Assembly: GCA_934646865.1 (NCBI GenBank)
Contig: CAKUEU010000048.1
Span: 1 to 12,610, forward strand
DNA length: 12,610 nt
Direction: 5' to 3'
Origin: an uncultured Collinsella sp.
Lineage (GTDB): Bacteria > Actinomycetota > Coriobacteriia > Coriobacteriales > Coriobacteriaceae
Positions within the stretch are counted from its first letter, which is position 1. Each line of letters starts with the position of its first letter. The notes beneath the pieces were generated by a model. It worked only from the letters and a program-made list of their open reading frames with translations, was not told where the DNA came from and did not search any database. A program made the position numbers and the translations under genes. Below are positions 1,037-9,675 of this stretch, one piece after another.

Positions 1037-1087
1037 CTTGGTGCAAAGGGGGCAGGTTACTTTGCACCAAGTTGGTGCATGTAAACC
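1037..1087. repeat. Inverted repeat with two competing hairpins after the oxidoreductase gene
   Basis: CTTGGTGCAAAG (1037-1048) and CTTTGCACCAAG (1060-1071) are perfect 12-bp arms around an 11-nt loop. The right arm can instead pair with a third copy, TTGGTGCA (1072-1079), across a single base, with weaker pairing continuing out to GGTT (1055-1058) and AACC (1084-1087). No T run follows on the plus strand, so it is not a standard terminator. It starts 8 bp after the stop codon. Confidence 0.7.
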
Positions 1088-1161: not shown

Positions 1162-1217
1162 TTCTGATCTGTCTTTATTCCGTGTATGATAATGTATAGA
1201 TAACGTCATACAGGAGG
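1162..1217 (+). promoter_or_regulatory. Promoter, inverted-repeat operator and RBS of the toxin-antitoxin operon
   Basis: A candidate -10 TATGAT (1185-1190) lies 17 bp after a weak -35 TTCTGA (1162-1167). An inverted repeat GTATGA (1184-1189) / TCATAC (1206-1211) begins within the -10 element and ends just before the Shine-Dalgarno AGGAGG (1212-1217). An operator covering the -10 and start site is the expected place for autorepression by the RHH domain of the first gene. The promoter call is weak; the inverted repeat and RBS are directly seen. Confidence 0.4.
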
Positions 1218-1223
1218 CTGAAA

Positions 1224-1712
1224 ATGAGTGCGTCAGTTTTGAGCGTTCGAGTAGATGCGGCAATTAAGGAATCGTTTGCCGAGCTTTGCGAAGAGCTCGG
1301 CATGACGTCCTCCGTTGCAGTCAATATGTTTATGCGTCAGATGCTGCGGGAGCGTTCTCTTCCGTTTATTCCTTCACTTTCGGTCGATAAGGAAGAAGAA
1401 CGGTCTGGCATTTTGACTATTGAGGAAATCAAAACCGCCGTAGTCTCGGCCGCGCGCAGTCGGGAGGCGATTCAATCAGTTACGCTGTTCGGTTCGTACG
1501 CCAGATGCGATGCACATGACGGCAGCGATATTGACCTGCGCATAGAGCTTGACCCGACAATGACGTTCGGGTTGTTTGCCCTCTCTTCCTTTGGAGAGGA
1601 AATCAAAGAGGCCACGGGCAAAAACGTTGATGTAGTTTCGAGTGAGCAGCTGCGCGAAGAGTTCGCGCAGGCAATCGCCAAGGAGGGCGTGGTGCTCTAT
1701 GTTCGCCCGTAA
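1224..1712 (+). CDS. mntA: Antitoxin: RelB/DinJ-like RHH domain fused to MNT nucleotidyltransferase (MntA-like)
   Basis: 162 aa. Residues 1-50 look like a RelB/DinJ ribbon-helix-helix antitoxin: a short basic strand (SVRVDAAIKE), two helices, and the family ending of the type FMRQMLRERSLPF. Residues 65-160 form a minimal nucleotidyltransferase with the exact GSx10DxD signature: Gly90-Ser91, Asp102 and Asp104, with Asp136 a candidate third carboxylate. Family knowledge: MntA inactivates the HEPN toxin HepT by AMPylating a tyrosine next to the RNase motif; DinJ-type RHH domains dimerise and bind their own operator. The fusion is longer than usual MntA proteins (about 100-140 aa). It overlaps the next gene by 14 bp, which indicates translational coupling. 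ATG with AGGAGG 6 bp upstream sets the start. Codons end in A/T more often than in neighbouring genes, suggesting horizontal transfer. The domain calls are firm; the AMPylation role is inferred from the pairing. Confidence 0.85.
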   Translation: MSASVLSVRVDAAIKESFAELCEELGMTSSVAVNMFMRQMLRERSLPFIPSLSVDKEEERSGILTIEEIKTAVVSAARSREAIQSVTLFGSYARCDAHDGSDIDLRIELDPTMTFGLFALSSFGEEIKEATGKNVDVVSSEQLREEFAQAIAKEGVVLYVRP

Positions 1713-2064
1713 ATCAGATGTGCAGCGCGCTCAAGAAATCCTTGAAGCGATCGATGAGACGAACAAAAGGATCAGGGCGTTCGACGTTACTGAGAGCGAC
1801 TTTCTCTACGGCGATGACATCAAAGCCCGAACGCTCGCTGATTCACTTCTTATGTGCGCTCTGAGGGTGACGGAAGAGGCGGGTAAGCTATCCGAGAAGG
1901 CGCAGCGGCTTCATCCCGAAATTGAGTGGCGTGGCATCGTTGGAATGAGAAATTACCTTGCGCACGATTACGGCAATGTCGATCGGGCGGTTGTGTGGGA
2001 TGCGGTGACCTCGGAGTTCCCAGCGCTTGCAAGGGTTTGCCATCAGATTATCGACGAGTCCTAA
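1699..2064 (+). CDS. hepT: HepT-like HEPN toxin (DUF86 family ribonuclease)
   Basis: 121 aa, helical, the usual size of HepT. The catalytic HEPN motif RX4HXY is intact: Arg84-Asn85, His89 and Tyr91 (RNYLAHDY). In characterised MntA-HepT systems Arg and His cleave RNA and the Tyr is the residue AMPylated by the partner nucleotidyltransferase. The start is ATG 1699, inside the end of the antitoxin gene and 12 bp after AAGGAGG (1680-1686); an earlier in-frame ATG at 1642 would add 19 residues of out-of-frame antitoxin sequence unlike HepT. It is co-transcribed with the upstream antitoxin. The target RNA cannot be seen from sequence. A complete motif argues that the toxin is active and not decayed. 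Confidence 0.85.
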   Translation: MFARKSDVQRAQEILEAIDETNKRIRAFDVTESDFLYGDDIKARTLADSLLMCALRVTEEAGKLSEKAQRLHPEIEWRGIVGMRNYLAHDYGNVDRAVVWDAVTSEFPALARVCHQIIDES

Positions 2065-2088
2065 AACAGGCGTTGCACCATTTCTAGC

Positions 2089-2128
2089 AAAAAAGCGGCG
2101 GCTGCCCTGTGTTGGGCAGCCGCCGCTT
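2089..2128 (-). terminator. Strong intrinsic terminator of the minus-strand isomerase gene, probably bidirectional
   Basis: A perfect 15-bp stem runs from AAGCGGCGGCTGCCC (2093-2107) to GGGCAGCCGCCGCTT (2114-2128), with a 6-nt loop. Six A residues (2089-2094) precede it, giving a U6 tract in the minus-strand transcript. It lies between the ends of two convergent genes, so it can also stop the toxin-antitoxin transcript. Confidence 0.85.
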
Positions 2129-8413: not shown

Positions 8414-8421
8414 CAGTGAGC

Positions 8422-9675
8422 ATGGTTGTCAGGGAGAGCCCTACCGTCGAATACAAGGAGAGCGTGACGCCGACGTTCCTCAAAACGGTGAGTGCCTATG
8501 TAAACTACGGAACGGGCAAGATTGAGTTTGGCGTTGACGACGAAGGCGTTGCAGTCGGTCTTTCAGATCCGGTTGCGGAGTGCCTGCGCATCGAGAACAT
8601 GATTAATGACAGTCTAGATCCCGCGCCCCGCTACTCGCTCGAGCCCGACGAGAAGCACGGGACTGTAACTCTTACGGTTTATGAGGGGCAGGACAAGCCC
8701 TATCGAAGTAAGGGGAAGGCCTATAGGCGAAATGATTCGGCGGCGGTAGAGGTGGACCGTTTTGAGTACGGCAGGCTGACGCTCGAAGGCAGCAATCTGA
8801 CGTTCGACGCGCTCACGTCGGCTCGTCAGGACCTGAGCTTTCATACGCTCGAGCACAAGTGCATTGAACATTTGGGCATTTCGGAGCTAACGCCGGATAT
8901 CATGCGTACGCTTCGCTTGCTCGGCAAGGACGGCTATACCAATGCTGCGGCGATATTGGCGGATAAAAACGAATTTCCGGGCATCGACTGCGTTCGTTTT
9001 GGTGACACCGAGGACGTCCTCTTAGATCGTGAGACGGCGACGGGCCTGTCTGCAATTGAGCAGGTGGATAGAGCAGTGGTCATGTTCGAACGCTACTATC
9101 GTTATGAACGCATCGAAGGTTTCGAGCGCGTTCAGACCGATCGGATTCCCCTCGAGGCATTCCGCGAGGCAGTTGCAAACGCCCTCGTGCATCGGACGTG
9201 GGATGTGCAAGCGAATGTTCAGGTTGCCCTGTACGATGACCGCGTCGTCGTGACTTCACCCGGGTCGTTGCCCGCTGGCTTGACGACGGAGCAATACCTG
9301 TATGGGCAGATATCCGTGCTCAGAAACCCCATCGTTGCCGAGGTCTTCTTAAAGCTGGACTATATCGAAAAGTTCGGAACGGGAATTGCGCGCATTAGGC
9401 GTGCCTATCGCGATTCGATCAATCAACCGATCTTTGATGTTCGCGGTGGTATGGTGGCTGTTACGTTGCCCGTTACCGATGCCTTTGAGGGGTCTGAGGA
9501 AGAGGTCCAGGTTCTCAAGGCCTTGTCGGGTGGGCGAATAATGTCGCGAAGTGAGATTGAGAAACAGGCGGGGCTAAGCCGCACACGAACGCTGGCGGCG
9601 CTCGAATCGCTGATTGAGCGGAACGCGATCGTGAAACAGGGAACAGGCCGCGCCACGAAATACGAGCGTGCGTAG
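8422..9675 (+). CDS. Schlafen/AlbA_2 - HATPase - winged-helix regulator
   Basis: 417 aa from ATG 8422 (GTG 8416 would add two residues). Residues 1-110 are an AlbA_2/Schlafen AAA_4-type domain starting with TVEYKES and ending in a RSKGKAYRR-type strand. About 230-330 is a divergent HATPase (HATPase_c_4) with EAFREAVANALVHRTW and VVVTSPGSLPAGL motifs, then FGTGIARIRRA. The last 65 residues form a winged helix (MSRSEIEKQAGLSRTRTLAALESL). Proteins of this architecture are common in gut bacteria and usually annotated as ATP-binding or transcriptional regulators; few have known functions. The winged helix and the upstream half-site array suggest self-regulation. It is a single gene flanked by terminators. 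Codon use is less GC-biased than in the sugar-acid genes, compatible with horizontal gain. A role in nucleic-acid sensing or defence is possible, but nothing here proves it. Confidence 0.85.
   Translation: MVVRESPTVEYKESVTPTFLKTVSAYVNYGTGKIEFGVDDEGVAVGLSDPVAECLRIENMINDSLDPAPRYSLEPDEKHGTVTLTVYEGQDKPYRSKGKAYRRNDSAAVEVDRFEYGRLTLEGSNLTFDALTSARQDLSFHTLEHKCIEHLGISELTPDIMRTLRLLGKDGYTNAAAILADKNEFPGIDCVRFGDTEDVLLDRETATGLSAIEQVDRAVVMFERYYRYERIEGFERVQTDRIPLEAFREAVANALVHRTWDVQANVQVALYDDRVVVTSPGSLPAGLTTEQYLYGQISVLRNPIVAEVFLKLDYIEKFGTGIARIRRAYRDSINQPIFDVRGGMVAVTLPVTDAFEGSEEEVQVLKALSGGRIMSRSEIEKQAGLSRTRTLAALESLIERNAIVKQGTGRATKYERA

Follow-up and report, generated by a model that had tools for sequence, protein, structure and literature searches.

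A RelB/DinJ-type ribbon-helix-helix domain joined to an MNT nucleotidyltransferase in a putative type VII-like toxin-antitoxin operon of Collinsella

Among the known systems nearest to the module described here is HepT/MntA, the type VII toxin-antitoxin pair represented by S. oneidensis SO_3166/SO_3165 and the L. pneumophila HEPN-MNT system. S. oneidensis MntA (SO_3165) is headless, with no predicted DNA-binding domain, and Yao et al. 2015 (PMC4621449) report that it shifts its own promoter in EMSA and that deletion of the operon makes promoter activity 1.6-fold higher. Makarova et al. 2009 (PMC2701414) present HEPN and MNT as strictly paired with each other and, apart from several domain fusions, not part of the combination network of other toxins and antitoxins. 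They describe RHH-HEPN fusions without MNT and raise the possibility of a DNA-binding component supplied in trans; the Pyrobaculum RHH-HEPN fusions (paREP1), covered in the same paper, likewise join RHH to a component of the HEPN/MNT system. The terms "RHH", "ribbon-helix-helix" and "RelB" do not occur in the main text of the 2013 HEPN survey (PMC3710099). No report of an RHH-MNT antitoxin was found among the papers listed in searches of the open literature, PMC6929052 and PMC11586414 among them.

The stretch of DNA analysed here (the window) comprises 12,610 nucleotides from an uncultured Collinsella sp. of the class Coriobacteriia. Its module differs from HepT/MntA in the RHH domain fused to the N-terminus of the antitoxin and in the conserved half-sites upstream, and its HepT bears only a distant likeness to the solved HepT structures. 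RelB/DinJ antitoxins of type II have a toxin-wrapping tail after the RHH domain. The window fusion resembles them (V. cholerae DinJ, 9lew) in its RHH, residues 1-51, and in having inverted half-sites where the operon begins, but has an enzyme domain in place of the tail and a HepT partner instead of RelE/YafQ. Other MNT proteins with CopG-like (group B), AbrB-like, HTH_17 or Xre heads also unite a DNA-binding head with MNT, several of them with a downstream HepT, and are distinguished from the window fusion by a different head and a different MNT clade or element.

The fusion antitoxin and its HepT partner

The fusion antitoxin gene (1224..1712, + strand), delimited by its open reading frame, domain searches and alignment, encodes 162 residues and is preceded by an AGGAGG ribosome-binding site (1212..1217, + strand, read by eye). 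Residues 1-50 (1224..1373) form a RelB/DinJ-type RHH domain; the RelB profile PF04221 matches residues 4-68 (E 9e-11) and the RelB_DinJ model TIGR02384 scores 54.9 bits, above its curated NCBI cut-off of 45.65. The MNT nucleotidyltransferase domain occupies residues 76-161 (1449..1706), where Polbeta (PF18765) matches over the whole domain (7e-14) and NTP_transf_2 over residues 76-154 (1e-10). The predicted structure agrees with both assignments, as residues 60-161 match MntA crystal structures and residues 1-51 give a modest match to DinJ. By domain profiles and predicted structure the protein is thus an MNT-fold antitoxin, as in type VII, and by TIGR02384 its head is an RHH of the RelB/DinJ type.

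The GSx10DxD motif, as defined for MNT antitoxins in PMC7641770, lies at residues 90-104 (1491..1535; G90, S91, D102 and D104), and D136 (1629-1631) is probably the third metal ligand, equivalent to D71 of S. oneidensis MntA, which the same source gives as a metal ligand. These five residues and L6-S7-V8-R9-V10 of the RHH are invariant across 33 aligned full-length fusions, namely the window protein and 32 chosen from the 120 listed homologues, with truncated or deleted proteins such as P0067 and P0076 left out.

The downstream gene (1699..2064, + strand) encodes a HepT-like HEPN toxin of 121 residues that scores 56.2 bits against PF01934 (cut-off 23.5) and matches HepT 5yep_B in a profile search (E 8.5e-6); a single-sequence search of the PDB gave no match up to E 1. 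Its RX4HXY motif reads RNYLAHDY at residues 84-91 (1948..1971; R84, H89 and Y91). The open reading frame list begins hepT at GTG 1642. Two features favour ATG 1699 instead: in 18 of 20 aligned HepT the first in-frame ATG falls at this position (the L024 start being set by hand and L014 being five residues longer), and an AAGGAGG ribosome-binding site, read by eye, precedes it inside the antitoxin gene (1680..1686, + strand). R84, N85, H89 and Y91 are invariant in these 20 sequences, which come from 19 headed loci and the headless L014, were picked by a filter requiring R-x4-H and leave out the near copies L003-L006. The sequence-only reading of this DNA had proposed a DinJ-like RHH joined to MNT, GSx10DxD in its present position, an RHH fold for residues 1-50, an intact RX4HXY in HepT and a 14-bp gene overlap; all of these hold, the 14-nt overlap with the ATG 1699 start. 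An intrinsic-terminator-like hairpin (2093..2128, - strand) lies between hepT and the convergent RpiB-like gene.

Among the 18 loci of groups A and A' (the window, L001-L006 and L020-L030), a HepT with RX4HXY lies directly downstream in 15, the window among them, as in type VII systems; at L021, L026 and L030, the last of which also lacks the start of its RHH, the ORF filter found no HepT ORF. The curated NCBI models for MntA and HepT (NF047752 and NF047751) score 52.4 and 31.9 bits, below their cut-off of 60 each; because these cut-offs govern naming and do not describe how the system works, the module is named type VII-like and filed as a variant. The genes adjoining the fusion and module encode an oxidoreductase, HepT and an RpiB-like protein; as none is a RelE/YafQ partner, the module is not filed as RelBE.

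In a collection of 5.8 billion proteins, 177 matched at E 1e-3; of the 120 listed, 81 carry both Pfam domains. Among these 81, 77 are 150-195 residues long, 78 have GSx10DxD and all have the RHH strand L-[SN]-V-R-[VM]-[DE]. Of 396 genomes sampled across the class, 15 have the same fusion, with matches that span both domains at E 1.5e-45 or better and begin at profile position 1 in 14 and at position 18 in G162; some match at E 1e-3 is present in 295 of the 396, in most cases to the MNT or RHH part by itself or to a more distantly related fusion. All named isolates that carry the fusion belong to Collinsella aerofaciens, and its recurrence in six C. aerofaciens isolate assemblies and in 81 of the 120 listed proteins rules out an assembly artefact. 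One homologue, P0040, is named at NCBI as a RelB/DinJ family antitoxin only, its MNT half being unnamed. In P0084 and P0087-P0095 the RelB head is kept and the MNT frame is lost, through either decay of the alleles or sequence errors, and P0218, a headless MNT, looks recombinant by eye, with a start like L014 and a remainder like the group A fusion.

Cargo of mobile elements was considered and is without support: plasmids and phages gave partial or distant hits (8 and 3 records respectively) with no full-length group A match, and in viral contigs no group A fusion was confirmed. A distant module on a Roseibium aggregatum plasmid (L081, 1483-2309), with an RHH-like head (by eye) and MNT accompanied by HepT, lies directly after a ParDE pair, with an integrase gene further on.

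An operator-like element upstream of the module

Upstream of the fusion gene lies the operator-like inverted repeat TGTATGA-N16-TCATACA (1183..1212, + strand), whose final base is shared with the AGGAGG ribosome-binding site. A -10-like TATGAT at 1185-1190 can be read by eye inside the repeat; a promoter scan found none there. The window repeat alone is marginal (p 0.03 against shuffles), and it is the conservation of its right half-site that singles it out. Of the 11 distinct upstream regions of groups A and A', 10 contain this half-site, TGTCATACA, without mismatch, starting at -27 to -19, and the window, one base off, brings this to 11 of 11 when one mismatch is allowed; in the rest of those 11 loci it has one hit in 104264 positions on both strands. 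The 11 regions were collapsed from 17 loci; L030, which lacks a normal start, and L010-L013, which duplicate L001, L002, L005 and L006, were dropped. Collinsella and L024, whose arms are perfect over 10 bases, retain the left arm, and L029 nearly does, but elsewhere this arm is often missing. The repeat noticed in the sequence-only reading is thus real, its right half being conserved in place among diverged relatives.

Inverted repeats beyond those of shuffled sequences are found in group A upstream regions taken together (combined p 0.0012, 12 loci), with p above 0.4 in five of the 12 (L022, L023, L025, L026 and L027). The test across all groups left out L035 as a near copy of L034, and L003, L004, L006, L020 and L021 as near copies of L002/L005. 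The full element, searched as TGTNTGATAN{11,14}TGTCATACA, occurs once per genome in five of nine genomes (G001-G004 and G315), always 10 bases before the fusion match, with 0 hits for the backward control. The four genomes lacking it are G145, which has a variant upstream region (L020), G022 and G098, whose A' loci have no left arm, and G024, which has no group A fusion among the matches listed. No regulon was seen in the nine genomes searched, in which the full element is a local site. Its conservation fits autoregulation and suggests a putative operator role, and promoter constraint may explain part of this conservation, as the element overlaps the presumed promoter.

DNA-binding heads on MNT domains

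The union of a DNA-binding head with MNT is not confined to one lineage, as RHH heads are found on MNT domains of several clades, and other MNT proteins have heads of the AbrB-like, Xre or HTH_17 kind. Group B heads consist of a CopG-like RHH followed by a long helix; they have at most a sub-threshold hit to an RHH-type Pfam family and a weak profile match to the group A head (hhalign probability 69), and Foldseek returned, among the matches listed, MNT, other nucleotidyltransferases or unrelated folds. The assignment of group B as CopG-like draws on sequence pattern, helix layout, the weak profile match and upstream palindromes. Group C (L031, P0211 and P0213, the last with a RelB score just below the Pfam cut-off) has a RelB head on a group B MNT, and group D (L036, L044 and 23 both-domain rows within P0241-P0266) has a RelB head on a different MNT; proteins from Ruminococcus, Desulfitobacterium and Megamonas are among the closest headless relatives of this MNT. 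AbrB-like heads sit on group B-like MNT domains in L093 and L098, both with HepT downstream; Pfam gives no hit for these heads, and the NCBIfam AbrB model matches below cut-off (E 9e-4 for L098 and 0.14 for L093). HTH_17 heads (PF12728 above cut-off) are found in L066, L067 and L076, and Xre-like heads in P0221 and in L071, the latter just above its cut-off.

HEPN-like ORFs, detected with a profile built from the HepT alignment, occur near L066, L067, L071, L076 and others. HepT lies downstream in six of 11 group B loci of a first set and in six of eight loci of a second (five of group B, two AbrB-headed and one of group C), so that either the pairing of group B with HepT is less regular or the ORF filter misses some; in group D, the same filter found HepT at L036 and none at L044.

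A tree was built from 95 MNT domains over 100 columns, with a bootstrap not quite settled and many forks unresolved; the groups had been named in advance, by head type and search provenance. Starred branches place group C inside group B. Most group D rows are separate from A, although P0266 sits with headless rows and P0226, assigned to D beforehand, is nearer A. Groups A, A', B and C form, with four headless rows, one unstarred set (96/72), and A and B may stem from one headed ancestor, with heads changing later; counts of head changes on the tree cannot separate gain from loss. AU tests reject a single clade of all RelB-headed rows (p 3e-66) or of all RHH-headed rows (0.012). Grouping A with either D or C is rejected at 0.004 each, and a clade of B that leaves out C at 0.009. 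On the sequence evidence, then, RelB heads are placed as having joined MNT domains more than once.

Upstream palindromes accompany several of these heads. In group B the combined p is 1e-8 over 10 loci, seven of which are below 0.05 against shuffles, and the group B element GTATTGCANNTGCAATAC has, within three mismatches, no match in 32355 background positions on one strand. The same test gives a combined p of 0.027 for group D (two loci) and 0.79 for group C (a single locus), and standalone MNT upstream regions show no palindrome excess (combined p 0.75; four loci that are two pairs of close kin). The RHH half-sites of groups A and B are alike, with TGTCATACA present upstream of both. An argument from L031, that the operator tracks the RHH rather than the MNT, was dropped, as TGTCATACA also precedes four CopG-headed loci (L042, which equals L094; L086; L091; and L102), and because of this the argument linking head and operator rests on the AbrB case. 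The AbrB-headed L093 and L098 share GCTTGGTACCAAGC, 20-21 bases before the chosen start codon, which occurs once in each AbrB-locus genome and in none of four other genomes. Over the MNT part, L093 shares 57% and L098 54% identity with P0211 of group C, and the HepT motif RNRLAHAY is common to them and to several group B loci. Given the similar MNT and the same HepT motif, the largest differences lie in the head and the element, and the head probably sets the operator, a suggestive result with two AbrB loci.

Proposed action of the module and its genomic setting

We consider it likely that the module is a type VII-like (HEPN/MNT) toxin-antitoxin operon in which the antitoxin bears its own RHH repressor head. 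HepT would be an RNase, which the MNT domain would disarm by adenylylating it at Y91; the RHH domain would dimerise the antitoxin and bind the TGTATGA/TCATACA half-sites, and so keep the promoter shut as long as antitoxin is abundant. Since the enzyme domain stands where RelB and DinJ have their toxin-wrapping tail, catalysis would replace sequestration, with the operator-binding half of a type II antitoxin kept. We infer these enzymatic and operator functions from sequence. The combined mechanism put forward in the sequence-only reading is plausible to this extent, and the conservation of the element fits its autoregulatory part; the novelty of autoregulation was overstated, as the claim that a simple MntA lacks operator binding is not supported, given the promoter shift reported for SO_3165 (PMC4621449).

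It is unlikely that the RHH serves only to dimerise the antitoxin, with any repression of the operon coming from MNT or the toxin-antitoxin complex as in headless S. oneidensis MntA. The promoter binding and 1.6-fold effect reported for that protein in PMC4621449, and the p of only 0.03 for the window repeat, would be consistent with such an arrangement. Against it, L6-V10, presumed to be the strand that reads DNA, does not vary among the 33 aligned fusions, and RHH and AbrB-like heads, though joined to similar MNT domains, are accompanied by different conserved elements (in two AbrB loci only). That the protein is instead a domesticated regulator whose MNT modifies a target other than HepT, or part of a decayed toxin-antitoxin pair, seems very unlikely: HepT was not found beside three of 18 group A/A' loci, GSx10DxD is absent from three of the 81 listed both-domain homologues and P0084 and P0087-P0095 have lost the MNT frame, yet the catalytic motifs are kept in 78 of those 81 and the pair is adjacent at 15 of the 18 loci. 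More improbable still is a dual antitoxin whose RelB part also neutralises a RelE/YafQ-type toxin. The RelB/DinJ model passes its curated cut-off, but the match ends near position 66-67 of models 82-85 positions long, residues 50-60 are of low confidence in the structure model and poorly conserved, and no RelE-like gene is present among the ten larger window genes scanned or the two module genes.

With the repressor-headed operon as the preferred reading, a broader and more tentative view, which we hold to be possible though doubtful, is that MNT antitoxins are a chassis that has repeatedly taken RelB, CopG-like and AbrB-like heads together with matching operators, giving hybrid type II/VII systems in which transcription reads the level of unmodified toxin. 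Bound un-AMPylated HepT would then alter the grip on the operator, and conditional repression would be coupled to an ATP-dependent enzyme step and not to the toxin:antitoxin ratio. Repeated recruitment of DNA-binding heads with changing operators would be of more interest than a single locus. In the fusion described here a DNA-binding component of the type II antitoxin kind is present in cis, as against the trans suggestion of 2009 (PMC2701414). Head swaps would offer natural controls for whether autoregulation and toxin neutralisation are separable, bearing on the regulation of enzymatic antitoxins, for which lasting attachment to the toxin is not required.

The module lies between the same neighbours in the window and in L001. 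At the DNA level it is about 79% identical between the two (window 1183-2065), whereas the nearby flanks are 93-94% identical. Differences at fourfold sites number 34 of 70 in MntA and 23 of 50 in HepT, against 37 of 183 in the oxidoreductase gene and 13 of 112 in the RpiB-like gene, a divergence of 0.46-0.49 in the module versus 0.12-0.20 in the flanks. The history of the module differs from that of its flanks, as expected under allele exchange by recombination.

After the oxidoreductase gene, window 1037-1071 contains a 12-base perfect inverted repeat (CTTGGTGCAAAG/CTTTGCACCAAG), and for a neighbouring shared stretch at about 1060-1090 the only exact-pattern match among six genomes is before the G001 module. 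Further along, window 8416-9675 encodes a protein with Schlafen AlbA_2 and HATPase_c_4 domains, near genes of sugar-acid catabolism (a GntP permease, an IlvD/Edd dehydratase and GntR regulators).
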